A DNA stretch of 26,173 bases from a virus, in IMG/VR virus record IMGVR_UViG_3300034062_006076, positions 1 through 26,173 of that record; one strand, given 5' to 3'. The position numbers were made by a program, and so were the translations under genes. Below, in pieces: positions 2 to 26,173 of this stretch. The notes under the pieces were generated by a model. That model was given only the letters and a program-made list of their open reading frames with translations, had not been told where the DNA came from and did not search any database. Position 1 is the stretch's first letter, and the number at the start of each line of letters is the position of its first letter.

Positions 2-2719
2 AATTTGAATTATTTTTATACCGCACCATCATTTGGGTCAACATATACACAAGTATTATCACAGTGTTTTAAAGACAATGCATTGGTGGAAGATATTATA
101 AGTAATCAGTCTGTATTTAATGGTTCGGTTAGGTTATTTTGGGGAGGGACACATTTTGGATATTTCCCAACAGTTAGTTCAGTATCTCAAATTGATGAAT
201 ATCTATCAAAATCAAATAGTGAAAAATGGGCTTGGAACTTATTTCTTGATGATAATTTTGATAGTGTAACTGGTGACAAAATAGAAGATTTATTTTCGGT
301 TTTCACTAAGGAAGAACTTGATTTGTTTGAGAATGAATTTTTTAATTTTAGTAGGTCTGAACTACAAACAACCGACCCATTTAATTTTCAAACGATACTT
401 AAAAAAAGTTTACAACTAAACCAATTTGATTTTTTAGATGCCAACCAAAATAAACTTCTAAATAACGTACAAACATCACAACAAAATTCATTCAACGGAT
501 ATCTAAAAAATGTCTGTAATGAAAATCTAATTTTTCAAAAAGGTAACCCAACTAACTTTGATTTGAAAAATTTTAGATTTTTCACCGAAAATCCAGTTGA
601 AGGAAGTTATGAAGACGTTTTAAAATATAGTACTGATACTTTTGATTACTTACCAAATGGAACTAACGGAGTGACATTTGAAGACTCAAGAAATAATTAT
701 ACCGACCTTTGGAGAACTATGGATATATACGTAGGATTTTCAACTATACCTCAACTTTCATACACGGGAGACAGTTCATATATAACAGACTTTTTCATTG
801 ACAATGACGTTGCTTTCAATAATGATAATATCATAAGATTTGCTGATGAGATAAAATTGTATGCCTCAAGAAAATTATTAGTACAAGGAGCACCTTTTAA
901 CTTCTTTACCCAAATGGAGGATTACCTTGAAAGTTTAAATGTTTTTAGGGATTATATTTTAGAAGGAGTTATTAAAAAATTACAAAGGTCTTTACCAACT
1001 CCACAAAATACACAAACTGAAGATAAGAGCGCGACAGAAGGTTCGGTTACAAGATTAGAATATTACAATTTATTTAAAACAATAAATGACAAATGGGTTG
1101 CTGGTAACAATTATAATAATGAAACATTATTTGAGGATATTTTGTTTTTAGATAGAGCAAATAGAAATATTGGGGACATCGTTATTGTTGATATTTTTGA
1201 TGCTGTAAAATATTTGAAAGGTAATAAAAAGGCAAATGTCTATACTGTGGTAACTTCTATAATTGAAAAGAATCACTTTGTAATTTATAACATGCCGTCA
1301 TACATTAATTATTATAATGCTCAAAATGCCGGAGAAACACTAAAGACAGAACCAGATTTAACTTTTGCTTCTAAGTTATTTGGAACCTTTACCCAAGTTG
1401 ACTACCAAGAGTCAAAGACAAAAATGGTTTGTCAATATGCTGAAACACCTTCAGAACATACAAAAAATAGTAGTACTAAGAATGCTTATAATGACGATAG
1501 TTGGGAATTTGATAAAGCAAATAGTAACCCAACTTTGGAAAATATGGATAAGAAGAAAGAGCAAGATGATTATTCATTGTCAAATAGAGCAGTTGCATTT
1601 GCGGTTGATTTTGGATTACAGAACCAAGGGGTTTTCCAAAACATACAAGTTGCTCAAGACATGGGTAAGGCAACATCAGAATCTTTACAGGCGGAGTATG
1701 ATTTAGCAAATATGACAAGAGGTACTAAAACTACCACTCAGAATGTTAGTTTATATAACATATATAAAAGTAGAAGTTATTCAGCAACTGTTAATGCTTT
1801 TGGTAACGCCATGATACAACCGACTATGTATTTTGTATTGAAAAACGTTCCATTATTTGCTGGACCTTACTTAATTACTGATGTTGAACACACAATTACA
1901 AATGGTAGTTTTACTACAAAGATGGTGGGGACAAGACAAAAATTATACACTCCCCCGATTAAAAATTCACTACTTGAAACTATTAAAAATAATTATGTTG
2001 ATAAATTAGTTAACCAACTTGTTAATAAGAAACAAACTGAAAAAACAATTAGTGCTAATACAATTAATACAAAAAATTCTATTTCTTCGGATATACAATC
2101 AAAAATGACTCCGTCTCCTAACCAAACCTGTAAAACATCATCTTCGTACGGAACTTATTCGGCAACGACAGTTCAAGAAACTTCAACACCGTTTAAACAA
2201 ATGATAGATACAGTTAGAGATAAGATAAGAGAATTTAATTTTGGTTCAAATTCTGGAGACTCAATGAACTATATAGTTTCGACTCTCTTCTATGTCAAAT
2301 CTTTTGATACCAATGGATTTAAGTATTATAATAATAACGTTTCAGGAATACCAATAGGGGAGGGAACTCCTGCTTGGGGAGGAAATTTACCAACACTTTT
2401 TGATAAAAGTTATATATGTTTAAATAACTCTGAAAACAAGAGTTATGCTTATGCGGTGTTCACATCACTTGACAACAACATTAGATTTACATGGGCTAAA
2501 TATAAAACAGTATTTGATAGTGTTGTTCAAAATATCGAAAACGAAGATTTATTCGTTAGTGGATTTACAAGGACATGGATTGAGAAATTCCCAACAGATA
2601 AAACGGATACGACTAATAACTTATATGAGTCGTTTAAAACCGACAATCCCCAACAGTTTCAAACACTTGAAAATAAAGTTCGGGATGGATACAGAAAAAT
2701 CAAATCCAATTTTACGTAA
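2..2719 (+). CDS. Large tail/baseplate structural protein with hub-like motif, 5' partial
   Basis: The reading frame is open to the window edge. The first possible start is a TTG at position 5 with no leader visible, and the first residues read like the interior of a protein, so I treat it as truncated at the 5' end with at least 905 residues. Around residues 590-640 (counting from the TTG) there is a stretch in which a Gly-Asn-Ala-Met-Ile-Gln-Pro run is followed by a hydrophobic strand, then Gly-Pro-Tyr-Leu-Ile-Thr-Asp-Val-Glu-His. This resembles the end of the late-control-D/VgrG/gp27 hub fold, where 'G-x-Y-x-V-x-x-V-x-H' closes a barrel. The rest is rich in Asn, Thr, Phe and Tyr, as expected of a phage structural protein, and has no signal peptide or membrane segment. 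A baseplate hub or tail protein is the likely role. The hub assignment is inference from a short motif and is much less sure than the structural call. Confidence 0.6.
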   Translation, partial: NLNYFYTAPSFGSTYTQVLSQCFKDNALVEDIISNQSVFNGSVRLFWGGTHFGYFPTVSSVSQIDEYLSKSNSEKWAWNLFLDDNFDSVTGDKIEDLFSVFTKEELDLFENEFFNFSRSELQTTDPFNFQTILKKSLQLNQFDFLDANQNKLLNNVQTSQQNSFNGYLKNVCNENLIFQKGNPTNFDLKNFRFFTENPVEGSYEDVLKYSTDTFDYLPNGTNGVTFEDSRNNYTDLWRTMDIYVGFSTIPQLSYTGDSSYITDFFIDNDVAFNNDNIIRFADEIKLYASRKLLVQGAPFNFFTQMEDYLESLNVFRDYILEGVIKKLQRSLPTPQNTQTEDKSATEGSVTRLEYYNLFKTINDKWVAGNNYNNETLFEDILFLDRANRNIGDIVIVDIFDAVKYLKGNKKANVYTVVTSIIEKNHFVIYNMPSYINYYNAQNAGETLKTEPDLTFASKLFGTFTQVDYQESKTKMVCQYAETPSEHTKNSSTKNAYNDDSWEFDKANSNPTLENMDKKKEQDDYSLSNRAVAFAVDFGLQNQGVFQNIQVAQDMGKATSESLQAEYDLANMTRGTKTTTQNVSLYNIYKSRSYSATVNAFGNAMIQPTMYFVLKNVPLFAGPYLITDVEHTITNGSFTTKMVGTRQKLYTPPIKNSLLETIKNNYVDKLVNQLVNKKQTEKTISANTINTKNSISSDIQSKMTPSPNQTCKTSSSYGTYSATTVQETSTPFKQMIDTVRDKIREFNFGSNSGDSMNYIVSTLFYVKSFDTNGFKYYNNNVSGIPIGEGTPAWGGNLPTLFDKSYICLNNSENKSYAYAVFTSLDNNIRFTWAKYKTVFDSVVQNIENEDLFVSGFTRTWIEKFPTDKTDTTNNLYESFKTDNPQQFQTLENKVRDGYRKIKSNFT

Positions 2720-2735
2720 ATTTGAATTAACTTAG

Positions 2736-2745
2736 ATATTTATAT
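2736..2745 (+). promoter_or_regulatory. ATATTTATAT element before the 74-residue gene, possible late promoter
   Basis: Same ten bases as the element in front of gp25, lying 12 bases upstream of the ATG at 2758. Transcription from a -10 box here would begin around 2750. The evidence is two matching copies in intergenic DNA only. Confidence 0.25.
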
Positions 2746-2757
2746 AAAAAAATCACT

Positions 2758-2982
2758 ATGGACGTTAAACAATTATTAGATAATTACCTCGGAAGAAAAA
2801 CTAGAATCACTGAAAAAGATGCCGGAAACGGATTTAAAGAAGTTTGTGATTTAGATACCGGTGATTGTTACACAGTTAGAATGAAAGACGGTCTAATTGA
2901 AAGAGTTGACAATACTTATATGTCAAATAAAAAAATTAATGTTGAAACTAAAACAGGAATTAAACAACTTTTAAACGGTTAA
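2758..2982 (+). CDS. Small hypothetical protein, 74 residues
   Basis: I do not recognise this protein. It is short, charged and slightly basic, with no membrane segment or signal peptide. Two cysteines six residues apart (Cys-Asp-Leu-Asp-Thr-Gly-Asp-Cys) lie near the middle, which could form a turn or metal site, though two ligands alone are weak evidence. It starts 38 bases after the preceding structural gene, with an A-rich leader and no Shine-Dalgarno sequence, and ends three bases before the next gene, so the two are almost certainly co-transcribed. The ATATTTATAT element just upstream is a possible promoter. Codon use and orientation match the neighbours, supporting a real gene. Confidence 0.7.
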   Translation: MDVKQLLDNYLGRKTRITEKDAGNGFKEVCDLDTGDCYTVRMKDGLIERVDNTYMSNKKINVETKTGIKQLLNG

Positions 2983-2985
2983 AAA

Positions 2986-3645
2986 ATGGAAATATCTAAA
3001 GCAATATTGGAGGAGTTAAAAAAATACAAAGAGATAAATCACTATATCTTTGAACAAGACGCTGGTCTTGATACACCACCTCCACCACCTGGTGGAGAAG
3101 AGGCTTTACCTGACCCAGCGGCTGCTGCCCCTGCGGCTGAAACTCCTCCGGCTGTTGAAGCTGAAGCCGGTGCACAACCCGTGGATGTGGCAACCGACCC
3201 AGAAGTTGAAAAAGTTGGTGAAGAAGGGGAAGATGAAACTGGAACAGAAGAACTAGAAGTTACTGACTTAGTTAAATCACAACAAAACATAGAAAAAAAA
3301 CAAGAAGAATATTTTAATAATTTATTTTCACAACTCTCAAATCTTGAACAAAAATTGTCTGACATGGATAATGTTATGAGTAAACTAAATGATTTAGAGG
3401 CTAAAATTGAAAAGTATCGACCTAAAACAAATCAAGAAAAATTAGAATTGAGAAGTTTAGATTCAGGTCCATATAATCAAAAATTGACCGATTTTTTTAC
3501 AGACAAACAACAAGATATTGAAAAGGCGGGAAAAAATGAGTATGTTTTAACAACCGACGAAGTTGAAGATTATTCAGTTGATGAAATCAAAGGAACCTTC
3601 AGTAACTACGGAGAAGAAGACGAATTCAAACCGATTAAGTATTAA
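2986..3645 (+). CDS. Acidic Pro/Ala-rich protein with coiled coil, unknown function
   Basis: This 219-residue protein has four visible parts. Residues 1-25 look like an amphipathic helix. Residues 30-75 are low complexity: five prolines in a row, then Ala/Pro/Glu runs. Residues 76-92 are strongly acidic. Residues 95-145 show heptad-like spacing of Leu, Met and Ile typical of a coiled coil, and the tail (185-219) is again acidic. The low-complexity part is visibly richer in G+C than anything else in the window because of its Ala and Pro codons. Acidic, coiled-coil phage proteins of this size are often scaffold or assembly factors, and some are virion linkers, but nothing here proves either role. 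It follows the 74-residue gene by three bases and ends 70 bases before the gp32 gene, so it probably belongs with the upstream structural group. Confidence 0.75.
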   Translation: MEISKAILEELKKYKEINHYIFEQDAGLDTPPPPPGGEEALPDPAAAAPAAETPPAVEAEAGAQPVDVATDPEVEKVGEEGEDETGTEELEVTDLVKSQQNIEKKQEEYFNNLFSQLSNLEQKLSDMDNVMSKLNDLEAKIEKYRPKTNQEKLELRSLDSGPYNQKLTDFFTDKQQDIEKAGKNEYVLTTDEVEDYSVDEIKGTFSNYGEEDEFKPIKY

Positions 3646-3655
3646 TTGGTAATCC

Positions 3656-3690
3656 TTATTTGACTTTTACGGCTGACACTTTTATTATTG
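3656..3690 (+). promoter_or_regulatory. Putative Bacteroidota-type promoter for the gp32 gene
   Basis: In the 70-base gap before the gp32 gene, a TTTG at 3659-3662 is followed after 20 bases by TATTATTG at 3683-3690. This matches the Bacteroidota -33/-7 pattern (TTTG, about 19-21 bases, TAnnTTTG) with one mismatch in the -7 box. The predicted start of transcription near 3697 would leave a leader of about 20 A/T-rich bases. A dedicated promoter would fit the high demand for gp32. The match is by eye in AT-rich DNA, so it could be chance. Confidence 0.4.
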
Positions 3691-3715
3691 TTCATTAACT
3701 ATTAAATTATATATT

Positions 3716-4549
3716 ATGGCGACAAATTCTTTAGATGCTGTTCTCGCTCAGTATGAAAAAGCGAAATCAAACACAGGTGGTAGTAAAATCTCCCAAGAAG
3801 ACCGAATGAAGAAGTACTTCGCGGCAATTCTACCACAAGGAAAATCAACAGGACAAAAAAGACTCCGAGTTCTTCCAACTACAGATGGCTCATCACCATT
3901 CAAGGAAGTATGGTTTCACGAAGTTCAAGTTGCTGGTAAATGGAATAAAATCTATGACCCAGGTAAAAATGACAATGAGCGTTCACCTTTGAACGAAATT
4001 CATGACGAACTTATGATGACTGGCAAGGCTTCTGATAAGGAACTTGCAAAACAGTACAAAGCTCGTAAATTCTACATCGTTAAAGTTATTGACAAAGACG
4101 CACCTGAGGACGGAGTAAAGTTCTGGCGTTTTAAGCATAACTACAAGAACGAAGGAATCCTTGACAAAATCATTCCTATTTGGAGAGCAAAAGGAGATAT
4201 TACTGACCCTGAGAAAGGTCGTGACCTTATTCTCGAACTCACCAAAGCAAAGACCCCAAAAGGCGTAGAATATACAGTTATTCAAACTGTAATGTATGAT
4301 GACCCGGCTCCTCTTAACGAAGATAAAGAGACAATGGACTCTTGGGTTAAAGATGAACTGACTTGGAAAGATGTTTATTCTAAGAAACCTGTTGAGTACT
4401 TGGAAGCAATTGCTCGAGGTGAAACTCCACGTTGGTCTTCTGAACTTGGTAAATATGTTTACGGTGACGAGTCTGGCGAAATGACTATGGGTGGAACTAT
4501 TTCTGACCCACAAGCCGGTGACGAACCTGATGGCGACCTACCCTTCTAA
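3716..4549 (+). CDS. 32: gp32-type single-stranded DNA-binding protein
   Basis: This 277-residue protein matches T4 gp32 (301 residues) in layout. A short basic N-terminal segment, which in gp32 mediates cooperative binding, is followed by a core OB-fold rich in Lys, Arg, Tyr and Trp, with Lys-Arg-Leu-Arg-Val-Leu-Pro near residue 45 and Phe-Trp-Arg-Phe-Lys-His near 137. A C-terminal tail of Gly, Asp and Glu ends Asp-Gly-Asp-Leu-Pro-Phe. It would coat ssDNA and recruit UvsX, helicase and polymerase partners. Two things are odd. There is no cysteine anywhere, so the T4 zinc site (one His, three Cys) cannot form; the equivalent region carries Ser-Pro-Leu-Asn-Glu-Ile-His instead. The tail tip also resembles bacterial SSB tips (Asp-Ile-Pro-Phe). 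Arg and Leu codons lean to CGT and CTT, unlike the AGA/TTA of the structural genes, suggesting strong expression. A terminator-like hairpin follows. Confidence 0.9.
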   Translation: MATNSLDAVLAQYEKAKSNTGGSKISQEDRMKKYFAAILPQGKSTGQKRLRVLPTTDGSSPFKEVWFHEVQVAGKWNKIYDPGKNDNERSPLNEIHDELMMTGKASDKELAKQYKARKFYIVKVIDKDAPEDGVKFWRFKHNYKNEGILDKIIPIWRAKGDITDPEKGRDLILELTKAKTPKGVEYTVIQTVMYDDPAPLNEDKETMDSWVKDELTWKDVYSKKPVEYLEAIARGETPRWSSELGKYVYGDESGEMTMGGTISDPQAGDEPDGDLPF

Positions 4550-12808: not shown

Positions 12809-13264
12809 ATGGCAAATGGTAAAACATACGGTGTAACGTTTCCTTTTAGAGATTCATTCGATGGTAAGTACTTAGATACTACCGATTATGAGGACCAAGA
12901 GATAAGGAGTAGTTTAATACATTTATTATTAACTAGAAAAGGTGCGAGATATTTTTTACCTGATTTTGGTACTCGTCTTTATGAATACATTTTTGAACCA
13001 TTAGATGGGCCAACATTTAACCAAATAGAGGCGGAAATAAGAGATTCTGTAGAACAATTCATCCCTAATTTATTAGTTAATAATATAAGTGTTTATGCTG
13101 CTACGGATGATGAATCAACGGTTTCTTCCCCACAAGGAGTTGCAAATAAAACCTTTGACTTACCAAATAGAAATACCATAGAATATACAGCTAAAGTAAG
13201 AATTGATTATACTATCACAAGTAATGCATTTAATCAGAGTGATTTTATAGTTATTAATATATAA
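12809..13264 (+). CDS. 25: gp25-like baseplate wedge protein
   Basis: Small wedge subunit of the GPW/gp25 family that sits near the sheath-initiation face of the baseplate. The family signature is clear: Leu-Leu-Thr-Arg-Lys-Gly-Ala-Arg-Tyr-Phe-Leu-Pro-Asp-Phe-Gly-Thr (40-55), followed by Ile-Phe-Glu-Pro-Leu-Asp (61-66) and a helix (71-86) with Ile/Val spacing. At 151 residues it is close to T4 gp25 (132). No Shine-Dalgarno sequence precedes the ATG. It is five bases from gp6, so the pair is co-transcribed, and gp25 and gp6 contact one another in the assembled T4 wedge. Confidence 0.92.
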   Translation: MANGKTYGVTFPFRDSFDGKYLDTTDYEDQEIRSSLIHLLLTRKGARYFLPDFGTRLYEYIFEPLDGPTFNQIEAEIRDSVEQFIPNLLVNNISVYAATDDESTVSSPQGVANKTFDLPNRNTIEYTAKVRIDYTITSNAFNQSDFIVINI

Positions 13265-13269
13265 AAGTA

Positions 13270-15108
13270 ATGGCAAACAAACAGATATCATATACTACTA
13301 GAGATTTCCAAAATATTAGGAATGAATTAATAAGTTTTACAAAAACTTATTATCCTGAATTAGTTCAAAACTTTAATGATGCTGCAATTTTTAGTGTTTT
13401 CATGGATTTAAATGCGGCTGTTACTGATAACCTACACTATCACATTGATAGAAATCTACAAGAAACAGTTTTACAATACGCTCAACAAAGAGCTTCAATA
13501 TATAATATTGCGAGAACATACGGACTTAAAATACCGGGACAGAGACCGTCAGTTGCTTTATGTGAGTTCTCAATTACCGTCCCAGCTTTTGGGGATAAAG
13601 AAGACATTAGGTATTGTGGTATATTGAGAAGAGGGAGTCAAGTACAAGGAGCTGGACAAATATTTGAAACAATTTATGATATAGATTTTGCCGCTGAATT
13701 TAATAATGAGGGATTCCCCAACAGAGTTAAAATTCCAAATTTTAATGCCAATAATCAATTAATTAATTATACGATTGTTAAAAGAGAACCAGTGGTTAAT
13801 GGACTCACAAAAGTTTTTAGAAAAACAATAACAAATGCTGAATCTAGACCTTTCTACGAATTGTTCTTACCTGAAAAAAATGTTTTAGGGGTTACAAGTG
13901 TTTTATTGAAAGACGGAACATCATATACTAACGTTCCATCATCTCAGGAATTCTTGGGAGTTGCAAATAGGTGGTATGAAGTTCAGGCCTTAGCTGAAGA
14001 CAGAATTTTTGTAGAAGACCCAACTAAATCCTCTGATACTCCGGGAATTAAAGTAGGTAGATATCTACAAACTAATACTAGATTTATAACTGAATTTACC
14101 CCACAAGGATTTTTGAAATTAACATTTGGGGGAGGTAATACATCAACTGATGAATTACTTAGAGATTTTGCAAGAAATGGAACGCCTTTAGATTTATCAA
14201 AATACCAAAATAACTTTTCATTAGGGTCAGCTTTAAAGGCTAACTCAACTTTATTCATACAATATAGAATAGGCGGGGGATTAGGGTCGAATTTAGGGGT
14301 TAATATTCTCAACGGAATTGGCACGATTAATTTCCTAGTAACTGGACCTTCTTCTATTATCAATAACAATGTGGTAAATTCATTGACCTGTAATAATATA
14401 ACAGCGGCAATTGGAGGAGCAAATATCCCAACAACTGAGGAAGTTAGAAATTACACAACATTTAATTTTGCCGCTCAAAACAGAGCAGTAACAGTTAATG
14501 ATTATGAAGCGGTAATAAGGAAAATGCCATCTTCATTTGGGGCACCTGCTAAAGTTGCAATAACTGAAGAAGATAATAAAATAAAGATTAATGTATTGTC
14601 TTACGATACAAATGGAAAGTTAGTACCAGTTATTTCTGATACTTTAAAAACAAATATTGCTAATTATTTATCTAATTACAGGATGATAAACGATTACATT
14701 TTTGTTACTTCTGCAAACGTAATTGATTTACAATTTGACATTTCTTTGGTATTGGATGCCACCCAAAATCAAGGAGTTGTAATATCTAACATTATTGTAA
14801 AGATAAGTGATTACATGAGTCCCGTTAATCGTGAGATGGGTGAAAACGTTAATATCTCAGAAGTTAGAAGAATAATCCAATCAGAAAATGGGGTAATTTC
14901 TATATCAGACATATTAGTATATAACTTGGTAGGCGGAGTTTATTCGTCTTCAGAGACTTCACAAAAGTATAAAGATTCTGCAACTAGACAAATAGAATTA
15001 ATTGATGATACAATATTTGCAGAGCCTACACAAATTTACCAAGTTAGATTCCCGGGTAGCGACATTAAGATAAGGGTTAAAAATTTATCTACTGTCAATT
15101 TCTCATAA
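13270..15108 (+). CDS. 6: gp6-like baseplate wedge protein (baseplate J family)
   Basis: Core wedge subunit that forms the inner ring of the T4-type baseplate. The 612-residue length is close to T4 gp6 (660). The N terminus has the typical helical start (Tyr-Thr-Thr-Arg-Asp-Phe-Gln-Asn-Ile, residues 8-16), and a middle region ends in Asn404-Arg-Ala-Val-Thr-Val-Asn-Asp-Tyr412-Glu-Ala, the signature of the baseplate J/gp6/gp47 fold, where a conserved 'NRAVT..DY' turn begins the helical domain. The C-terminal third alternates beta strands with a Met-Gly-Glu-Asn-Val motif near 525. The gene follows gp25 by five bases and is followed by a 63-base gap with a hairpin before the giant gene. Confidence 0.9.
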   Translation: MANKQISYTTRDFQNIRNELISFTKTYYPELVQNFNDAAIFSVFMDLNAAVTDNLHYHIDRNLQETVLQYAQQRASIYNIARTYGLKIPGQRPSVALCEFSITVPAFGDKEDIRYCGILRRGSQVQGAGQIFETIYDIDFAAEFNNEGFPNRVKIPNFNANNQLINYTIVKREPVVNGLTKVFRKTITNAESRPFYELFLPEKNVLGVTSVLLKDGTSYTNVPSSQEFLGVANRWYEVQALAEDRIFVEDPTKSSDTPGIKVGRYLQTNTRFITEFTPQGFLKLTFGGGNTSTDELLRDFARNGTPLDLSKYQNNFSLGSALKANSTLFIQYRIGGGLGSNLGVNILNGIGTINFLVTGPSSIINNNVVNSLTCNNITAAIGGANIPTTEEVRNYTTFNFAAQNRAVTVNDYEAVIRKMPSSFGAPAKVAITEEDNKIKINVLSYDTNGKLVPVISDTLKTNIANYLSNYRMINDYIFVTSANVIDLQFDISLVLDATQNQGVVISNIIVKISDYMSPVNREMGENVNISEVRRIIQSENGVISISDILVYNLVGGVYSSSETSQKYKDSATRQIELIDDTIFAEPTQIYQVRFPGSDIKIRVKNLSTVNFS

Positions 15109-15171: not shown

Positions 15172-18100
15172 ATGCCGAATTCATACCGTATACGCACCGA
15201 GGTTGGGGTGGATAAAGTTTTACAAGTTAAATTAGACCAAGATTTTGATACATTAGAAATTTTATCGTTAGCAATATTTCCAAATGACGTTTATTTAAGA
15301 AATTGTGCAACTTTTGGTACAATATGCGGTAGAGTATTTTGTAATAGAGGGCTAGGTTTACCTAATGCCAGGGTTTCTATTTTTATCCCAATAGAGGAAG
15401 TGGATGAATCAAATCCCTTAATCTCTTCAGTTTATCCTTATAAGTCATTTGAAGATTTTAATGAGGATGGGTATAAATTTAATTTGTTACCGTATTCACA
15501 ATCACATTCAGGTCACGTTCCAGTTGGTACTTTTCCTGATAGGGTTGATGCTTTGACCGACCCTACTGTTGTAGAAATTTACGACAAATATTATAAGTTT
15601 ACTTCAAAAACAAATGATTCTGGTGACTACATGATTTTTGGGATACCAATTGGTGAATATGACATAATCATGCAAGTTGACCTTTCCGATATAGGTGAAT
15701 TTTCTCTACTACCACAAGACCTTTTAAGAATGGGTTTGGCAAATGAATCACAATTAGACGGAACTAGATTTAAATTCTCAGAAAACTATAGTGAATTACC
15801 ACAAATTGTGACTTTAAAAAAAGTCGTTCAAATTGCCCCATTCTATGGGCAAAAAGATATATGTGACCATTATATAACAAGAGCTGACTTTGATTTAACA
15901 AGTGAGGCGGGTATTGAACTTAAACCAACAGCGGTTTTTATGGGTTCAGTAATATCTTCTGAAAATAGAAAAAAACTTAAAAGAAATTGTAGAGTACCCG
16001 CAAAACAAGGATGGTTATGTAACTTAGTTGCGGGACCTGGACAAATAGAAACTGTTAGACATACAATTTTTTCTGACAACCAAGGAAGACCCATATTAGA
16101 AGAATTTAGGTTAGAAAATGACGGTAAATTAATCGATGAAAATGGTACATGGCTCATTGAACTACCAATGAACTTAGACTTTGTATACACCGATGAAGAT
16201 GGTATTAAAAGAATATCCACAGATGGAGAAAGAGGAGTCCCCACCAAGTCCAAGTATAGATTTAAAGTTAAATGGCAACAATCTCCACAGTTATCAGAAG
16301 AAAATAGAAGAGGATATTTTTTAGTTCCAAACATCAAAGAATGGGGATGGTCAAATTACGCCAATGACCCAAACTTTACTAATGTTGGCACTGGAACCAT
16401 TGAACTACCTATAAATGGAGATAATCCGATACCTGCGGGAGAAGAACCAAGTGCTGGACCTTTTTTATATTTACTTGCAGATTCTAGTCAATACTACAAT
16501 GTTGTAAATACAAATAATATTGAAACATATACAATTGTTGTCGATGGAGTTGAAGAACCAAATTATACCGACACAATACCTATGGGTATATTTTTTAGTA
16601 TGACCCCTAGGCCCGACGTGTATATTAAATACACTCTTATTGACCCACAATTACAAGGTATTCTTTTTATAGAACCACTTACCGAACCATTATTTCAATT
16701 ACAATCTTCCTATGCATTTAGCGTGGATTGGACTGACTATGGAACACCTGAAATGATTCAGGAGGCAATAGACTGCGTAGATAGATTCTATGAGTTCAAA
16801 TTCAATAAAGTTTATACGGTATCTTCATTAATTGATAGATATTCAAACAGAATATTTCCTCAAAAATCAATACAGATTAAACATATTATAGATAGTACAT
16901 GTGAAGGTATAAATAACCCATTCCCAACTAATGATGCTTATTATAGATTTGATATACTTTACATATTATTCAGTTTTGTATTAACAATATTAAAACCAAT
17001 TGGTATTATAATAATTGTTATTATGCACGTATTAGCTTGGCTTTGGCCCTTATGGCAAGCTGTCCTAAAACTTATATATAGCATTCAAAACTTTATATAT
17101 AAAATATGTAAAGCAGTTAATAAAATTCCAGGAGTTAACCTAACTTGTACCCAACCAACACCTCCGAAAGATGAGGAAAACCCATTTACCAATCTTAAAA
17201 TACCACTTTTTCTTTACACTGAAGATGGTTGTGAGAGATGTAGATGTAAATTAGAAGAACAAAATATTAGTGGTAGTGATGCTTTAGATAATTTATTAGA
17301 TAATATTGCTCAACTTGAAGAAAATAACACGTCATTATTAGCAGATTTTCCGGACCAAAATGCATACAATCCTATTAGGTGTATAAATACTGCTGGACCT
17401 GACTACGATGGACTTTGCGGAGTTCCGATTACTGATAGAGGTATTGCAACAGTTTTTAATAACCCTGAAAGAGAGGCACAATACTTAGAAATGCATCAGG
17501 CATTAATTGCCGGCTCTAACACAGCAGAAGAACCAAGAGCTAGAAGATTCCCAATTTGGATTGGGTCTGAATTGTCGACTCCTAGTTTTAACATATTTAT
17601 GCATTCCGACGGACTACCAATTGCTGAAAGATTAAACTTGTTTAATACAAAGGCAAAATATTTTGATAACTTAAACCCCCCAGGTTCTCCAGGTACTGGA
17701 GGTGCGGGAACAACAATTACAACACAAACATTTTTTGGCGTAAGAAGAACGAGTAATGTTAATTTTGCTATGGGTACTTCTTTTAGTACGTACGGAACTA
17801 GCAGTACGTTTATTACAAACTATGTTGAAGAGGTAGACATTGCGGCCACTTTTGACCCAATAGCAGGTACTTTTACCGCACCACAGGCAGGAACCTATTC
17901 ATTTTCATATTCAATGACCTTTGAAATCGTATCGTCACCTTTAGGTAGGTATTGTTTCGATGATGATAATAATTTGGTTTCTTGCGTTACCGCAAAAGTA
18001 AATATAACGGACGGATTTACAACAAGCTCAACTGTTGTGTCACCATTTTATATGTCGCAAGATTATGGAGAATTGTATCCTAACATTTTTGGTAACGGAT

Positions 18101-21100
18101 TTTTGGTCCAACCACCCACGTATACTATTTCGGGTACGTGGACTAGAAACCTCACTGCAAATCAAACACTTAAATTAAAAGTTAATATTGAGTTAGGACA
18201 GGTTATACCTAATATTAATGGTTTTGCTAATAACCCTGGATTTGAATCATATGAATACGATAGTTTTAATGGAAATTTAGGGGATTGTGTAGATTCTACC
18301 GACTGTGATTTTGAATTTGTGGTAAGGGATATCGAATGGACTTTAAATAGTAGTCCTGAGGTTACCGTACCAATTGCTGCCACAGGAGTTGAAGCGGGTT
18401 ATAAATTAAGTCCAGGTAATACAGGATGGAATCAGGCTAGAGTACAATGGGCTTCAGACAGACCTGCAAATGCTAACAAGTTTCACTATGATAATATGAT
18501 TGTATTACTTGTTAACAACACGGGATTAACTGAAGGTGACATGATTAGTTTCACTTCCGCATCGGTTTCAAAAGACAAAAATAAAAACAAAATTTTTGGA
18601 ATACAATACGATAGAAACACAATAAGGGCTAAATACGCAAACCCTATATACGGAGACCCAAATCCATTACTTATAACAACTTATCAAATAGACGACACTC
18701 CTCCCGAGGCTCAAAGAAATGTAATTAGAAAAACACCATATGCAATCGACATAGAGTATTTCCAAGTAGTTAAACAAATGGATATGCTTCAGTATTTTTT
18801 CTTAACTGGAAATGATTTGTTCGACCCATTTACAACTCCACCAAACAATGATGTTAGATTTTCACTACCGTGGAGATTTTTGAGAAGTCATTTGGGGCCT
18901 GAAAAAGGAAATCAAATATGTAATGATACGGACTATCCATATATGGCGGGGAGTAGCTCCCTTTACAGGAATGGTAATATGATATATCAAACCACAGCTA
19001 ATTATGCCGGTGGATGGGCTTGTAACTCTTGTGCTGGATGTCGAGCAGGGAACACATATCAAAAAGGTTCGGTTGACCCGATTAGAAGTTATACTGCATT
19101 TACAGAAGGTTTTAGTGTTGTATTTTTACAAAGAGGAGTCGACCCGCATTCCCCAAGAATTAATATCAAATATGACCTTAGAAGATTTTTTGGAATAAAT
19201 AATGATTACAATTTACCCGCAATTACTTTATATGGTGTAGACATAACTAACGAAGTTGTAGTTGAAGGAATGTTTAGGGTTAATATTCCAATACAACCCG
19301 GTGGAGAAGAATATGGAGAAGGGACTTGGGAACAAAATAACCCCCACGGACTTAGGTTAATTGAACATAATACTATACAAAATAATAACGACTCAACCTA
19401 CGTTGGAGCACATCCTCCAGTCCATTTTGAGAGTCAGTTTTTTACCTATGACAATCCTGATAACGACTATATAGAATTTAGCTCAACTACATTGAATTAT
19501 TATTCCGCTCTTGATAGAGCGGCGGTCTATCAAGGTTTTGGGGACGAAGCTTATAGGTGGAATCCGGAAATGCCTCGTTTTGCGGTTGACCTTTATACTG
19601 TTGACACAACTCAAGAGTTATGTTTAGTGAGAACTGATAGTCCTTGGACCTCAACTCCACAACTTTCCCCTGATTTACCTCTTTGCGTTGCACAATATCC
19701 CGATGATGTGGCAACAAATAGTGCTGGACCTAATTGGGCTCAATTAAGTGAGACTAACCAATTTACATTGACATTGAGTTATTATTGTAGTACCACAAAT
19801 GGTAACGTATATATAACTGAACATAATTTTGCTCCAGACCAGGGAAATAATGCATTATGCCCCGGCAGCACAAGGTACTGTTGTGACCCTTTTTGTAATG
19901 CTACAGTTAGTGATTGTAGATGGTTTAGACATTGTCCTGTTTGGAAACATAAGGCTAATGATGTTTCAGGATATTGGTATCGAGAATATGTTGAAGGAGG
20001 GTCATGTTTAGGTTTATTTTTATATAGGTCAGATAACCCTTGGCCTACTTTTTCAGTTTATGGGGACTTTAATGAATGCGAAAATCCTGGAATTGAACCT
20101 GATGCTACATATCAAATGTTTAACCCAAACTATGATATTAATGTTTATTGGTCTCCAGTTTATGCTGGATTTACTGAAACTGAACCTAGACCGGATTTCG
20201 TTAACAATTTTTTTGGAGGAGACGTTGAGGAGGCAAGAAAATGGTGGTACGTCAACCCTAGACACACAATAACATATTCAAATAAAGATAGGTTGGTTAT
20301 AAGAACTGATAGATTACCATCATCTACAAACTTACAAAATGACGGTCTTGGTGCAAGTTATATTATGCACCAAAATAGTGGATTCCTTATTGTGGTTTAT
20401 GAAGATTTAACAGGTGAAGGGTTAGAAGAGGGAACCGCTGCAACTGTTCCTTATGAAGCTGGAGGAGAAGTAAACTTTGAAAATTTACCTGGAGGTACTG
20501 GTGGGGCATATGCGGGTGTGACAGAATCATTGGTTGACTGTACAAAGGCTGTTGATTTGAATAGTTATGGTATTGACCCTGTTGCCGAAACTCCTTTTAT
20601 ATATGAACAAGACCCATTTAGTAGGGAACCTGCAAATGATGATAAAGGTGATTGGTGGTGGTTTGTTAGGGGTATGGGTTGTTATAATTTTGTATCGAGA
20701 CCTTTCTCGAGTTTAAAACCGCACGGTATAGGGTATAATTATCCTGACGAGGCCGGAGGAGGCGAGAAAAAATATTCCGATATCTACTCATTAGTTGAAC
20801 TTATACAAAGACTAAAACTAACCTTTGCACTTTGTTTTGAAGTAATCTCACACACGTTCTCAAACGGATGGGTTAATGGTACCCTTTATGCTTTTGCATT
20901 CCAAAACTCAACTTTTTTTGATTCTAACAATTTACCTTACAGGTCATTTTGTAGAGACGTTGTGTTGTTCCATAAACCTTTAAAAAACTACTATTATAGA
21001 AGTAGTCCATGGAACGGTACAGATTTCATTGGGAAAAGAAGTCCAATTTTTGGTTCTAAAAGAGGTAACCTAAGGAATTTATTATTTCCAACAACTGTAA

Positions 21101-22098
21101 TGGATTTAGGACCAAAAGCTTCCTTTATACAAGAATTAGTTTTTTCTGATGAGTATGATGGATTTATTTCCGCAAAACTACAATCAACATCATTCCAAGA
21201 TGTGACAGACATATTAAACGTATTTGTACTTACTAGATTAGTTAATGCTACTTTTTTACAAATGTTGATACCACTACCTGATGATAATGGTAATGAACAA
21301 GGTAGTGATGACCCTTCTGTTGGTTCATTCTTTGCTAACAGTAGATGGGAAAATGGTACTTTATTTTTTAATGGATTGTTACCTGGTTTGATGGATGCTG
21401 ACTACTCCCAATTGGTTTCAATAAATTCCGAGTTTGGGGTTGTAGGTTTTGGCCCTGAGTCTTATTCAAATAACGCTTTGTTTTTTGGAATTGATGATAA
21501 TGGATATTCGGTATTAGGACTATTGTTTAGTGGTAGTAATCAAGATAGGGATTATATTTCACCAAGAAGAACCATATGGAGAGAATTCGCCTCACTACCC
21601 GAACAAGATGAAGATTTTACATACATATCAATTAAGACCCAAACTGTGCCATTCCACCAGTGGACAATCTTCCATGAAGAAGACCAATCACCTGGAGGTG
21701 AGAATAGTATATTTGGATATCAGTCAAATAACTTTGTGACAGAGCCTGGTTCGAGTACATACACTACTTTCCCTAATTTCCCTAACGGATTTTTCTATTC
21801 ACCATATCAGTCAATGGACAGATTTAACGGCTCATCCAATTACTTTAGACCCGAAACAAATAATACGTTTACATTTAAAGGATTTATAAGTAACTCACAA
21901 GAAACTGTAAATCCTGATGGAACTTTCTTTTTCACACCAACCGCTAGAATAAATCAAACATTAGCACCTTGGACTAATGGTAGATATACATACAGTGTTG
22001 GGTCACCATTCCATTTTTATTTTGGTTTGATTAACGGAGGAAGTGCTTTAGATAGATTCGTAAAGGCTTATATAGATACAAATATAGTATATGAATAA
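15172..22098 (+). CDS. Giant multidomain baseplate/tail protein, 2308 residues
   Basis: It sits directly after gp6, where T4 places gp7 (1032 residues), but I see no recognisable gp7 similarity. Residues 50-72 (Ile-Cys-Gly-Arg-Val-Phe, then Leu-Pro-Asn-Ala-Arg-Val-Ser-Ile-Phe) and 147-170 (Thr-Asn-Asp-Ser-Gly-Asp-Tyr, then Gly-Ile-Pro-Ile-Gly-Glu-Tyr-Asp-Ile) look like a carboxypeptidase-regulatory/Cna-B-type beta sandwich with an insertion at about 75-140. Residues 595-645 are strongly hydrophobic, resembling one or two membrane helices, followed by Cys687-x2-Cys690-x-Cys692. Residues 847-1060 contain a C1q/TNF-like jelly-roll signature (Gly-Thr-Phe-Thr-Ala-Pro-Gln-Ala-Gly-Thr-Tyr-Ser-Phe at 899-911). 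More cysteine clusters lie at 1284-1290 and 1563-1588. The rest is Asn/Tyr/Phe/Gly-rich, as in adhesins and fibre proteins. It overlaps the next gene by eight bases. A wedge or host-contact role is likely; individual domain calls are by pattern only. Confidence 0.8.
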   Translation: MPNSYRIRTEVGVDKVLQVKLDQDFDTLEILSLAIFPNDVYLRNCATFGTICGRVFCNRGLGLPNARVSIFIPIEEVDESNPLISSVYPYKSFEDFNEDGYKFNLLPYSQSHSGHVPVGTFPDRVDALTDPTVVEIYDKYYKFTSKTNDSGDYMIFGIPIGEYDIIMQVDLSDIGEFSLLPQDLLRMGLANESQLDGTRFKFSENYSELPQIVTLKKVVQIAPFYGQKDICDHYITRADFDLTSEAGIELKPTAVFMGSVISSENRKKLKRNCRVPAKQGWLCNLVAGPGQIETVRHTIFSDNQGRPILEEFRLENDGKLIDENGTWLIELPMNLDFVYTDEDGIKRISTDGERGVPTKSKYRFKVKWQQSPQLSEENRRGYFLVPNIKEWGWSNYANDPNFTNVGTGTIELPINGDNPIPAGEEPSAGPFLYLLADSSQYYNVVNTNNIETYTIVVDGVEEPNYTDTIPMGIFFSMTPRPDVYIKYTLIDPQLQGILFIEPLTEPLFQLQSSYAFSVDWTDYGTPEMIQEAIDCVDRFYEFKFNKVYTVSSLIDRYSNRIFPQKSIQIKHIIDSTCEGINNPFPTNDAYYRFDILYILFSFVLTILKPIGIIIIVIMHVLAWLWPLWQAVLKLIYSIQNFIYKICKAVNKIPGVNLTCTQPTPPKDEENPFTNLKIPLFLYTEDGCERCRCKLEEQNISGSDALDNLLDNIAQLEENNTSLLADFPDQNAYNPIRCINTAGPDYDGLCGVPITDRGIATVFNNPEREAQYLEMHQALIAGSNTAEEPRARRFPIWIGSELSTPSFNIFMHSDGLPIAERLNLFNTKAKYFDNLNPPGSPGTGGAGTTITTQTFFGVRRTSNVNFAMGTSFSTYGTSSTFITNYVEEVDIAATFDPIAGTFTAPQAGTYSFSYSMTFEIVSSPLGRYCFDDDNNLVSCVTAKVNITDGFTTSSTVVSPFYMSQDYGELYPNIFGNGFLVQPPTYTISGTWTRNLTANQTLKLKVNIELGQVIPNINGFANNPGFESYEYDSFNGNLGDCVDSTDCDFEFVVRDIEWTLNSSPEVTVPIAATGVEAGYKLSPGNTGWNQARVQWASDRPANANKFHYDNMIVLLVNNTGLTEGDMISFTSASVSKDKNKNKIFGIQYDRNTIRAKYANPIYGDPNPLLITTYQIDDTPPEAQRNVIRKTPYAIDIEYFQVVKQMDMLQYFFLTGNDLFDPFTTPPNNDVRFSLPWRFLRSHLGPEKGNQICNDTDYPYMAGSSSLYRNGNMIYQTTANYAGGWACNSCAGCRAGNTYQKGSVDPIRSYTAFTEGFSVVFLQRGVDPHSPRINIKYDLRRFFGINNDYNLPAITLYGVDITNEVVVEGMFRVNIPIQPGGEEYGEGTWEQNNPHGLRLIEHNTIQNNNDSTYVGAHPPVHFESQFFTYDNPDNDYIEFSSTTLNYYSALDRAAVYQGFGDEAYRWNPEMPRFAVDLYTVDTTQELCLVRTDSPWTSTPQLSPDLPLCVAQYPDDVATNSAGPNWAQLSETNQFTLTLSYYCSTTNGNVYITEHNFAPDQGNNALCPGSTRYCCDPFCNATVSDCRWFRHCPVWKHKANDVSGYWYREYVEGGSCLGLFLYRSDNPWPTFSVYGDFNECENPGIEPDATYQMFNPNYDINVYWSPVYAGFTETEPRPDFVNNFFGGDVEEARKWWYVNPRHTITYSNKDRLVIRTDRLPSSTNLQNDGLGASYIMHQNSGFLIVVYEDLTGEGLEEGTAATVPYEAGGEVNFENLPGGTGGAYAGVTESLVDCTKAVDLNSYGIDPVAETPFIYEQDPFSREPANDDKGDWWWFVRGMGCYNFVSRPFSSLKPHGIGYNYPDEAGGGEKKYSDIYSLVELIQRLKLTFALCFEVISHTFSNGWVNGTLYAFAFQNSTFFDSNNLPYRSFCRDVVLFHKPLKNYYYRSSPWNGTDFIGKRSPIFGSKRGNLRNLLFPTTVMDLGPKASFIQELVFSDEYDGFISAKLQSTSFQDVTDILNVFVLTRLVNATFLQMLIPLPDDNGNEQGSDDPSVGSFFANSRWENGTLFFNGLLPGLMDADYSQLVSINSEFGVVGFGPESYSNNALFFGIDDNGYSVLGLLFSGSNQDRDYISPRRTIWREFASLPEQDEDFTYISIKTQTVPFHQWTIFHEEDQSPGGENSIFGYQSNNFVTEPGSSTYTTFPNFPNGFFYSPYQSMDRFNGSSNYFRPETNNTFTFKGFISNSQETVNPDGTFFFTPTARINQTLAPWTNGRYTYSVGSPFHFYFGLINGGSALDRFVKAYIDTNIVYE

Positions 22099-23875
22099 CA
22101 ATGAAACTGTAAATTTTATTAAGGGTTCCCTTAGGTACAAACAGTCAACTGAAAAGAGTGTTCAAGTGACTGTACCCCTTAGTGGAAAAATGAAAGAACT
22201 TGACGATTATCAAAAAAACTTGTCAATAAATTTAGCTGAGGTATACGACAGAGAAAGACAAAAGTCTACTCTGTTTGCTCCGGTTTTTAAATTTCAATTT
22301 CTTTTTTCAAATGCTTATTCGGGGACAGCTATGCCTTATGGCTCACCATATCCTGCTTTTAATAATAACTTGTCTTATTTAAATTCCGAAAGTACAAAAT
22401 TACTACAATTAGACTCTAGTACAACAATTCCGTGGCCGGGATTCCCCCAATACAATGAGTTTTGTTTCATAAGAACCGACTCAAGTGTTTTTGGTTATAC
22501 ATCAGGTACTGGTAACCATTTAAATTTTATACCACAATCTGCGTCAACATATAATTGGAATTATTATATGACTTACGTATATGGTCAAGACGAATATCGA
22601 CAAGTAAGTTATGTTTTTCCTGATGGACAAACTTTAACATCGCAACCAAATTTGGGGTTACCTTATATAATGAATAGAGTTGAATTTGAAGGTAAAACAT
22701 TGTGGCAGTTTACTTGTTTGGTTAATCATAACTTGGCTGTTGGTGATTATGTTTATATACCAAACGTAGATGTGAGAACGATTACAGGGGTGGTACAACC
22801 AGGTAGAAATAGATTTGAAGTCTATAGTTTGGGTAATGGGTTCTTTAATTCCGATAAAAAAATCTTTAATATTTTGGACGTTGGTTTTAATCAATCATCA
22901 GCTTCTTTTAGCCCAAATAAGATAGGTCATTTCTATCGAGTAACAGATAACGATAACCCAACAGGTTCTCAGTCTATTTACTACTTCAGATTACATAGAA
23001 TATTAACAGACCCACAAGACGCTATTGTGACTAATGCGGGATTTGAACAAAATGCTTTTAGAACTGTTAAAAAATATGAAAGCCCTGACCTTACACCAAA
23101 TCAGGTGGAAAGAATATCAGTTAAAGAAGATTCACAATCCTATAATATTTCATTTAATAGTGAAATTAATTTGGTCAATTTAGTTGATAATAGAAATAGA
23201 CCAGTTTCTGAATTGTTTGTAACTGTAATAAATAAAGGATTTTTCGGATATTTCAACCCCCCAAATGTACAAAATACCACAGGACTCAAAGAAGGGTGGG
23301 GATTTAATTTAAGTGGAACTGGGGTACCTGATTGGTGGAGAAGAGATAATGGTCTTTCAGATACTACAATTGGTTATAGGTCTTATAACAGAGCTGGACT
23401 TACATTTTACTATAATAACACTCCACAGGTTGGGGATACAATATATGGAGATTTATGTGAATGGAATAATTTAACCCAAGAGGAAACAATCCTTTCGGAG
23501 TATTATCAAAAAATTGTATATAATCCGCAAATCTTTAATATTAATTCAGATTTATTGAATCCATTGGGGTATTATTATTATCCGCATTTTCAAATAAAAA
23601 TAAGACAATTTTCAGATTATATAGAAGAAGGTGATAGAGATACAACTGAAGATGCCCCTAACTACGCTTACTACTCTCCTTATAATAATAAGTTATACTG
23701 GAGGGATATTTATACTTATGGATTTATAGATGCCGACGGTAATGGGGTTGATTATCCTTTTATGAATGGTATCCATTATCCTAATAAAAACTTTTTCTTC
23801 AGATTAATACCTGAAGGTTCAAACTTATTATCAATACTAAGCGTACAAGACCCGATTATAGATGGATGTGAATAA
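22091..23875 (+). CDS. Tail/baseplate structural protein, 594 residues
   Basis: I do not recognise a family. The protein starts with a polar segment containing a likely helix (residues 30-52, Lys-Met-Lys-Glu-Leu-Asp-Asp-Tyr-Gln). The rest is rich in Asn, Tyr, Phe, Pro and Gly, with alternating hydrophobic residues that suggest beta structure, typical of phage tail appendages. The His-Asn-Leu-Ala-Val-Gly-Asp-Tyr-Val segment (about 214-222) resembles turn motifs in baseplate and fibre proteins. There is no signal peptide or membrane helix. Its ATG overlaps the giant gene's stop region by eight bases, and its own end overlaps the next gene by 14 bases, showing translational coupling and suggesting that the products assemble together. 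By position it could replace T4 gp8 or gp9, but I have no sequence evidence for that. Confidence 0.75.
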   Translation: MNNNETVNFIKGSLRYKQSTEKSVQVTVPLSGKMKELDDYQKNLSINLAEVYDRERQKSTLFAPVFKFQFLFSNAYSGTAMPYGSPYPAFNNNLSYLNSESTKLLQLDSSTTIPWPGFPQYNEFCFIRTDSSVFGYTSGTGNHLNFIPQSASTYNWNYYMTYVYGQDEYRQVSYVFPDGQTLTSQPNLGLPYIMNRVEFEGKTLWQFTCLVNHNLAVGDYVYIPNVDVRTITGVVQPGRNRFEVYSLGNGFFNSDKKIFNILDVGFNQSSASFSPNKIGHFYRVTDNDNPTGSQSIYYFRLHRILTDPQDAIVTNAGFEQNAFRTVKKYESPDLTPNQVERISVKEDSQSYNISFNSEINLVNLVDNRNRPVSELFVTVINKGFFGYFNPPNVQNTTGLKEGWGFNLSGTGVPDWWRRDNGLSDTTIGYRSYNRAGLTFYYNNTPQVGDTIYGDLCEWNNLTQEETILSEYYQKIVYNPQIFNINSDLLNPLGYYYYPHFQIKIRQFSDYIEEGDRDTTEDAPNYAYYSPYNNKLYWRDIYTYGFIDADGNGVDYPFMNGIHYPNKNFFFRLIPEGSNLLSILSVQDPIIDGCE

Positions 23876-24926
23876 AGTTAAAATATTACAAAGTCCTGGA
23901 GATAAAACTATTTTGATTCCTATTGGTAATCAAAATGACTTGTTAAATAGAGAGGATGCTATTGTACAAGAGGAAAACCGAATAATTGAAGAAATTATTG
24001 GAACCCCAATTAACTACGAGCTTTCAAGATATTCAAACGCTCCTGATAATTTAGGATATACACAATTGGTGTATAACTTTTTTTTCACAAATTCTCCATC
24101 TACCCCTGCTGAACCATCATACCTTACTGAATTTACTGAAAATCAAATACGATACAGAACTAATCAATTTGCAAATTCTTTTTTTAAACTTGATTTTTAC
24201 GATACACCAGACCCCAAAAAACAAAAAAACTTCTTTACAATAATATTACCCGCAACCAAAAGCACTGAGGTTTTTGAAACTTTTTGTGAGGCTCACGTTA
24301 TTACTGTCCAAGAGTCTGGCAGAATTGAGTACACTAATTGTTGTGGTGATGTGGTAATCCAAACAGTTAATGTGCCTCTTAATCAAAACTCGGCGAGTAT
24401 ATCTATATGTAGAACTATTGGTACTATTGCAACATATTCATATAGTATTGTTAGAGATGAGGACTTTCTTTCATATACTATTGATTTAGACTTTAGTGGG
24501 TTCGAAGACTCACCTAGGTATTCTTTACAAAGCTTGGGAGAATGTCTTTGTAATAGTTTAATAACTTCTTCGTTAAACGCTATTCCAAATTTATTAGAGC
24601 CCTCATTTGTTCTTGACCACACAAGACTAAAAGAAGGCTTTTACATATATTGGTATGAAAATTCTGAAATAGTTGACACAAACATTTTCCATATGTCGGC
24701 AAAATTTTTTAATGCCACAAACGGACAATATACAAAATTTATAATAAACGACCAATCAACTTATCCTAATCCTTATAGAATACCAAATAACGATTTTTAT
24801 CATAGGTTGGTGTTCAATTACAGTACTAAGACATACACAATATATGGAGGACAATCACCAAATAATAGTCCTGCAAACATATTAAATAATGTTGTATGGT
24901 TTGAATACGTTAATCCACCGGTTTAA
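23862..24926 (+). CDS. Structural protein with a cysteine-containing insert domain, 354 residues
   Basis: No family is recognised for the whole protein. Residues 1-140 and 200-354 look like beta-rich structural segments with many Asn, Tyr and Phe. Between them lies a compact unit with Cys142, Gly-Arg-Ile-Glu-Tyr-Thr-Asn-Cys160-Cys161-Gly-Asp, and Ser-Ile-Cys183-Arg. The pattern 'Gly-x-Ile-x-Tyr-Thr-x-Cys-x-Gly ... Ser-Ile-Cys' is, from memory, one I associate with repeat domains in Bacteroidota surface and phage proteins, but I cannot confirm that here. The gene begins inside the previous one (14-base overlap) and ends two bases before the next, so it is part of the same structural operon. 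A role in the tail or in host contact is inferred from context. Confidence 0.72.
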   Translation: MDVNKVKILQSPGDKTILIPIGNQNDLLNREDAIVQEENRIIEEIIGTPINYELSRYSNAPDNLGYTQLVYNFFFTNSPSTPAEPSYLTEFTENQIRYRTNQFANSFFKLDFYDTPDPKKQKNFFTIILPATKSTEVFETFCEAHVITVQESGRIEYTNCCGDVVIQTVNVPLNQNSASISICRTIGTIATYSYSIVRDEDFLSYTIDLDFSGFEDSPRYSLQSLGECLCNSLITSSLNAIPNLLEPSFVLDHTRLKEGFYIYWYENSEIVDTNIFHMSAKFFNATNGQYTKFIINDQSTYPNPYRIPNNDFYHRLVFNYSTKTYTIYGGQSPNNSPANILNNVVWFEYVNPPV

Positions 24927-24928
24927 AA

Positions 24929-26173
24929 ATGGAAGTTAGAAAAGTAAAAATATCACCAGAGGTTTTATCTGAAGAAATCTCACAACAAATATACAGTGGA
25001 ATAACGGTTGGTTATTATTCTGGAATGTCATATGTACTTTCTTCAGGTACTGTTGATTTGGGAACATATGTAATAGGAGATGCAACAATCGATGGGGGTA
25101 TTATTGGTGATTTTGGAGCTTTAAACAACTCAACTACCATCCTACAAATTAGTAGGAAGAACCTCTTAGGGTATGATTGGTCTTTATATTTTCAAGAACA
25201 AATAATAGAAGGGTCCTTTATTACAATTTCTTCCACAACCGCAACAATTGAATTTAAATCACAACAAGATGGTGTCATTAATGATTTTTATTTAGAATTT
25301 GGATTAGTAGCTCTTGCAAGGGCTACCGAGGGAGTTTTTTCAGTTGGGGAAGAAGTTAATGTCTCAACCAAAAAAGTCGGCACCTCCCAGTTAGTTAATC
25401 TTTCAATACCTATATTGCTCAATCAAAATTATGAAGACATTGGATATTATTCACCATTTGACGGGGATTTATCACAATTAAATGAGGAAGTTAATTTTAC
25501 ATTTGTTGTGAATCCGGTAAACAATTATGAAATTTGTGTCTTCAATACTTCAAATAGGACTAAAACATATTTAAGTGATACTACTTATTATGTTAATTGG
25601 GGTGATACTGATGTGGTTGAACAAGTTACCGTTTTTATACCTGACTCATTTTGTCATACTTACGCTCTGTTTCCAGACACTCAATATACCATATCATTTA
25701 CAGGAACCTCTTCATTTGGAGAATTTATTATTAAGAAAAATCTTATAGTTCCATTCGACAATGTTGTAATTGATAACCCATACGGAGAAGTTTCATTTAT
25801 ACCATTTAATGGTTCTTGGATTGGAACACCATCAATGCAAGATTATATAACTAATTATGATTCTGAAAATGTTGCAATAGTTGTTGCGCCATTTACCGTT
25901 ACCGGATATACAAATTCAAGAATAAATGAGTTGGCAGTTGTGGGGGCTAATAAGTTTATTATCGATTTACCAATACAATTAGCAGATGGTACTGAAGGTG
26001 TTTTAAACTCAATTTCTGACGAGTTTACAGGTTATACAATAAATGACCAAGTATATCAAGATTATCCCGATGGGACCTCAATTTTCATTTGTGTGTCAGA
26101 AGGATTAACCGATATTATGGTGTCCACTAGTGGTATAACTAAATTTGAATATTTAATGAACATTATTGAACAA
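24929..26173 (+). CDS. Structural protein with a PKD-like segment, 3' partial
   Basis: An ATG at 24929 opens a frame of 415 codons with no stop before the window edge, so the gene is truncated at its 3' end. It starts two bases after the previous stop and continues the structural operon. The N-terminal 30 residues look helical (Ser-Pro-Glu-Val-Leu-Ser-Glu-Glu-Ile-Ser), followed by beta-rich sequence. Residues 222-245 contain Val-Asn-Trp224-Gly-Asp-Thr and His243-Thr-Tyr, then Tyr-Thr-Ile-Ser-Phe, matching the 'Trp-Gly-Asp ... His-x-Tyr ... Gly-x-Tyr-x-Val' pattern of PKD immunoglobulin-like domains. In phage tails and adhesins such domains act as spacers or bind carbohydrate. The role in the virion (fibre, wedge or decoration) is inference. 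Confidence 0.75.
   Translation, partial: MEVRKVKISPEVLSEEISQQIYSGITVGYYSGMSYVLSSGTVDLGTYVIGDATIDGGIIGDFGALNNSTTILQISRKNLLGYDWSLYFQEQIIEGSFITISSTTATIEFKSQQDGVINDFYLEFGLVALARATEGVFSVGEEVNVSTKKVGTSQLVNLSIPILLNQNYEDIGYYSPFDGDLSQLNEEVNFTFVVNPVNNYEICVFNTSNRTKTYLSDTTYYVNWGDTDVVEQVTVFIPDSFCHTYALFPDTQYTISFTGTSSFGEFIIKKNLIVPFDNVVIDNPYGEVSFIPFNGSWIGTPSMQDYITNYDSENVAIVVAPFTVTGYTNSRINELAVVGANKFIIDLPIQLADGTEGVLNSISDEFTGYTINDQVYQDYPDGTSIFICVSEGLTDIMVSTSGITKFEYLMNIIEQ

Follow-up and report, generated by a model that had tools for sequence, protein, structure and literature searches.

The question raised by this locus is what a long hydrophobic helix is doing in a giant protein that a T4-type phage encodes within its baseplate operon, and whether that helix is meant to enter a membrane. 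The window, that is, the whole stretch of DNA that was analysed, is a 26,173-base fragment of such a phage, and the T4-type myophage genes that it carries include homologues of gp25 and gp6. The gp25-type baseplate wedge/sheath initiator of 151 residues (12809..13264; PF04965, E 5.6e-13; PHROG baseplate wedge) is followed by the gp6-type baseplate wedge protein of 612 residues (13270..15108; PF04865 Baseplate_J, E 8e-7; PHROG baseplate wedge, E 7.9e-19), by the open reading frame of the giant protein of 2308 residues (15172..22098), and by three genes for proteins of 594, 354 and at least 415 residues (22091..26173), the last of which is cut by the window end. All of these, and all features given below for the giant protein, are on the + strand. 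A gp6 homologue lies directly upstream of the giant gene in 138 of 147 loci, the 594-residue gene directly 3' of it in 83 of 86, and the 354-residue gene is found in 68 of 70; the block gp25-gp6-giant-594-354 is conserved across related loci, and the three downstream genes belong to it. The dG scan of these three gave no membrane-type segment. A frameshift or assembly artefact as the source of the giant frame is ruled out, given that the homologues keep the same open frame.

Further genes of the window, partly identified by reading, include those for ribonucleotide reductase, a replicative helicase, a RecA-like (UvsX) recombinase and an RNase H-like nuclease. An ORF of 905 residues cut at the window start (2-2719) has no convincing family match and resembles tail hub proteins by eye. 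Among 10 related virus contigs, several of which are fragments, gp23 is found on three and gp20 on two. No match to the giant protein, to two distant relatives of it or to the 594-residue neighbour was found among 50,697 phage records, and searches of PDB sequences returned nothing informative.

It is clear that the stretch to which the first-pass annotation drew attention is real; it is of membrane type by every sequence measure and is conserved throughout the family. Residues 593-631 are nearly all nonpolar (residue 593 begins at base 16948), with the membrane-type core placed at residues 595-631 (16954..17064) by Kyte-Doolittle analysis, dG scan and alignment, and residues 632-650 are amphipathic. 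The description of 593-645 as almost continuously hydrophobic is therefore slightly generous, since residues 632-645 are mixed (LKLIYSIQNFIYKI), while it is accurate for 593-631. The Lys-Pro reported at 608-609 is present, and among the aligned relatives it occurs only in the window and in the close relative L001. The 19-residue Kyte-Doolittle maximum, 2.61 at residue 598, is below the maximum of 2.87 reached in 2000 shuffles of the whole protein, and the best 45-residue mean, 1.831, is above all 2000 (maximum 1.822). The dG scan, which used Hessa-type parameters and was sanity-checked on three test helices (polyLeu, glycophorin A and one from a soluble protein), places a segment at 603-625 with -1.77 kcal/mol. 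The stretch is uninterrupted and long enough for membrane crossing, as in tail proteins of the T5 pb2 type. Charged residues make up about 3% of the helix segment across the alignment. Pairwise identity within it is 0.36, versus 0.58-0.65 in the well-conserved flanks. The polar or small residues 601, 605, 608, 619, 626 and 629 share one helix face, forming a polar stripe that includes His619 (17026..17028), which is 98% conserved in the alignment. Judged by these measures, the helix looks built for entering a bacterial membrane.

The family is large: viral_contigs has 440 relatives of the whole giant protein, and a profile built from residues 1-832 matches at least 592. A hydrophobic peak lies within 60 residues of the preceding motif in 147 of the 148 fetched homologues that have this motif, the exception stopping at a contig edge. 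All 143 scored homologues have a favourable segment at the same place (every dG below 0, median -2.12), and 104 of them have one to three further TM-like segments, giving a total of one to four; outside the module, the dG scan found no TM-like segment in any of 95 complete ORFs. Just ahead of the helix the alignments show an invariant cysteine, Cys577 (16900..16902), and beyond it an invariant C-x2-C-x-C (687, 690 and 692; 17230..17247), at the positions where these three cysteines had been placed. The motif is present in all 135 homologues that are long enough, 74-170 residues past the equivalent of C577; the four cysteines are invariant in 40 non-redundant sequences, and their equivalents C24/C106/C109/C111 are so in 94. 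These define the borders of the module as C577 to C692. A Cys4 metal site is possible, in a part of the model that has low confidence. Given the hydrophobic peak in 147/148 and the motif in 135/135, chance is irrelevant, and an origin of the stretch by chance or composition is ruled out by this conservation. Homologues have anywhere from one to four TM-like segments, so the flanks would not keep the same topology if every segment spanned a membrane; for this reason a simple multi-span anchor was not adopted.

The helix is a separable module, since two distant relatives from two metagenome bins, L162 (747 residues) and L164 (728 residues), keep the N-terminal region and have no TM-like segment at all. 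A third distant relative, L163 (2220 residues), has a TM-like segment at the same place and lacks the C-x2-C-x-C. On L163, a helicase ORF of 845 residues (1846-4383) seems by eye to be interrupted after GVGKAQ by an intein-like sequence.

AlphaFold2, run on 95 sequences (mean pLDDT 74), predicts a single continuous helix of 56 residues at 595-650 (16954..17121), with ten-residue mean pLDDT of about 79-90 from residue 601 on and 60 at the first residues; the flanks of the helix and the cysteines are at low confidence. For the short homologue L030, the model has a helix of 37 residues at the equivalent place, most of it with pLDDT of about 89-95. These models are of monomers and are unable to show lipid contact. 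Outside the helix they are mainly beta, which is not the mostly helical or coiled-coil make-up of tape measure proteins. The conserved N-terminal region, residues 1-400 (15172..16371), has a pairwise identity of 0.61-0.65, and residues 43-250 within it are modelled as a beta-sandwich of the transthyretin or carboxypeptidase-regulatory-like type (2nsm; VIA-align Z 9.8, rmsd 2.0, 79 aligned). PF13620 matches weakly in 38 of 40 members (best E 7.5e-5) and is absent from the protein of the window itself. The C-terminal half gave no Foldseek match with E <= 0.001 and no VIA-align Z above 3.5, which is no proof of a new fold. A model in BFVD from Myoviridae sp. ctPuP5 (A0A8S5LA66) is a true relative, with 39% identity over 390 columns and a Foldseek E of 5.8e-41; it is an unannotated metagenomic sequence and the likeness covers the N-terminal region of the giant protein.

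Comparison with the nearest relative, L001, shows a fast-diverging segment at residues 841-1042 (17692..18297), where 98 of 196 residues differ, versus one in residues 1-594. Such fast change is as expected of a host-contact domain, for which this segment is a candidate; a C1q match at residues 888-938 (E 0.0098) is below the cut-off. Over window positions 15172-18297, the two sequences hardly differ before about codon 630 and diverge sharply beyond it, which suggests recombination within the giant gene. The dN/dS comparison with L001 is uninformative because the first 590 codons or so are almost identical.

The giant gene lies directly after gp6, as gp7 does in T4, and the protein had been taken for a T4-type wedge protein, a class in which membrane helices were said not to be expected. 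Neither statement is supported by the comparison with gp7 itself. By hhalign, the giant protein against T4 gp7 and a seven-member gp7 alignment reaches a probability of 0.1-0.2%, and the helical core-bundle domain followed by the KGT/KGI trifurcation motif was not found in it by profile comparison. T4 gp7 and seven relatives, for their part, have one conserved TM-like segment (VIRFVHPVGFGFIAITLLTMFI in T4), with dG from -0.22 in T4 to +0.87. In T4 it comprises about 22 residues, 879-900, between Pfam gp7 domains V and VI, and in the GenBank record of T4 it is labelled a predicted integral membrane domain. In T4 gp7 (L170 8061-11156) and the seven relatives the segment shows the motif RFVHP[VI]GFGF. 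Given this conserved, weaker segment in gp7, hydrophobicity alone is no proof of membrane insertion.

A separate ORF of about 1000 residues, found in four related genomes some 5 kb further along the block (L182 11365-14352; L183 12609-15596; L184 12950-15892; L185 12836-15823), carries the KGT motif in the form LFKSKGTR..E..L..GAP. It is homologous to the post-gp6 protein of Microcystis phage Mel-JY01 and, through Mel-JY01, to that of Flavobacterium phage immuto; P2 gpI has the same KGT motif, which is of the gp7/gpI type. The profile match of this ORF to T4 gp7 is not significant. From the motif, the place in the block and the homology to Mel-JY01, we infer that it encodes the gp7-type wedge protein of this lineage; in the source phage its gene would be located past the end of the window. 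The dG scan found no TM-like segment in the post-gp6 proteins of immuto, Mel-JY01 and LR756508. Given the lack of similarity to gp7 and the separate KGT-motif ORF, the giant protein is most likely an additional baseplate component. That it is instead the gp7 wedge subunit, with the helix as its core-bundle helix, is suggested by its place after gp6 and is nevertheless very improbable: the core-bundle helix of T4 is Pfam Gp7_helical, residues 643-689, which is distinct from the TM-like segment at 879-900, the profile similarity is lacking, and the KGT motif sits in another ORF with its own homologues after gp6.

Of the remaining explanations, insertion of the helix into the host envelope ranks first, ahead of a helix buried in the baseplate and then of an anchor used during assembly. 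The helix could stay buried at all times inside the assembled baseplate, as part of a mixed bundle that includes other helices of its own protein, or gp6 or a neighbour, and never meet a membrane. The precedent of T4 gp7 speaks for this, as do the prediction of one long helix and not a hairpin, the polar stripe on one face, and the invariant cysteines on both sides, which suggest that the ends are close together; VIA-align rows joining model residues 40 to 810 also hint that helix 784-807 of the L030 model packs alongside. However, the helix has a dG about two units below that of the T4 gp7 segment and a length of about 37 residues versus about 22, further TM-like segments are found in 104/143 homologues, the hydrophobic residues vary freely among themselves, and the gp7-type protein that would be expected to make up the core bundle appears to have an ORF of its own. 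A coiled coil or core helix of a soluble domain, which the first-pass annotation had named as the outcome that would overturn a membrane role, thus finds limited support, given the scarcity of charge, the one long helix and the apparently separate core-bundle-type ORF. We regard the buried helix as rather unlikely, and as the strongest competitor.

Less probable again is a role during assembly, in which the helix would tether the giant protein, and with it the nascent baseplate, to the inner membrane of the infected cell. Membrane-held parts are known from contractile systems (Cis13, PMC8894136; CisA of Streptomyces, PMC12237407), and a hydrophobic helix of this length inside the chain would be read as a membrane segment during synthesis. 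However, a lytic phage must free its tail again and no device for release is seen, a single span would need 590 or about 1650 residues to be moved across the membrane, and the flanks, net negative on the N side and net positive on the C side, give a weak orientation signal only.

Envelope insertion is favoured because comparable devices exist in T5 pb2 and Cis13 and the helix is stronger than that of pb2 by the same scan. We hold it tentatively, as the best of the readings and somewhat short of an even chance. The giant protein would be a baseplate-associated structural protein with a membrane-insertion module, a helix of 37 to 56 residues, the first 37 or so of membrane type, set between Cys577 and the C-x2-C-x-C. 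In the free virion this predicted helix would be covered; on opening of the baseplate at the cell surface it would be released and enter the host envelope, so that the baseplate would be held in the membrane, and several copies may help to form a path for the tube or the DNA. The polar stripe with His619 would then face neighbouring copies or a lumen, and the cysteines may hold both ends of the module by a metal or a disulphide. Such insertion is favoured by hydrophobicity that is kept while identity falls to 0.36, as in lipid-facing helices, by the favourable dG in 143/143 homologues, with no segment outside the module in the 95 complete ORFs, and by the conserved gene block, along with the occurrence of gp23 and gp20 on certain longer contigs. 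The separability of the helix (absent from L162 and L164, present at the same place in L163) also argues for it, and the divergence of residues 841-1042 would fit a host-exposed part. Caution comes above all from T4 gp7, which belongs to the wedge of a baseplate of solved structure and has a TM-like segment itself, and also from the polar stripe, which would equally suit a helix that is mostly buried and exposed along one edge.

The host of this phage is likely a member of the Bacteroidota. This is suggested, indirectly, by the ribonucleotide reductase and UvsX of the window, whose nearest relatives are those of Tenacibaculum, Cellulophaga and Flavobacterium phages, by gp6, with Flavobacterium phages in four of six matching records, and by the 732-residue protein after the gp7-type ORF of L183 (15596-17791), which has SprB repeats (PF13573). 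SprB repeats occur in gliding adhesins of Bacteroidota.

Little is understood of how contractile phages keep hold of the host membranes and bring their DNA through the inner one. To our knowledge, no solved myophage baseplate has a part shown to span a membrane, and we know of no membrane-type helix at this place in contractile phages. The conserved, separable module from C577 to C692, in a family of at least 592 loci, is a concrete and expressible candidate for such a role; should the helix prove to be buried, it would be a useful warning on TM predictions in baseplate proteins, in parallel with T4 gp7. A bolder proposal, to which we give a low probability, is that a large uncultured T4-type lineage has a dedicated membrane-entering baseplate protein, several copies of which would insert their helices after adsorption and surround the tube as an anchor or channel. 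In the virion, a clasp of four cysteines that responds to metal or redox state would keep this device shut.

Among known systems, T4 gp7 shares with the giant protein the place directly after gp6 and a TM-like segment, but there is no sequence similarity, the gp7 segment is shorter and weaker, and the gp7-type motif is here in another ORF. For the tape measure protein pb2 of T5, insertion of 46 hydrophobic residues into the outer membrane on infection has been proposed (PMC10038345). The giant protein, probably a tail component too, likewise has a long hydrophobic stretch, a likeness in mode of action that is drawn from hydrophobicity measures; however, pb2 is a coiled-coil protein of a siphophage, whereas the giant protein is beta-rich, belongs to the baseplate operon of a T4-type phage, and has an invariant cysteine frame and a stronger helix (pb2 gives dG 0.63 and KD 1.82 in the same scan). 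Among contractile injection systems (CIS), firing in Streptomyces depends on the membrane protein CisA (PMC12237407). The thylakoid-anchored CIS requires a TM helix of Cis13 for its anchoring, and this TM domain is found only in filamentous cyanobacteria (PMC8894136). Cis13 and the giant protein have in common a helix of TM type in a part attached to or associated with the baseplate of a contractile machine, but Cis13 is a trimeric, tail-fibre-like protein of a cyanobacterial CIS with the helix near its C terminus, whereas in the giant protein the helix is internal and the machine is a phage.
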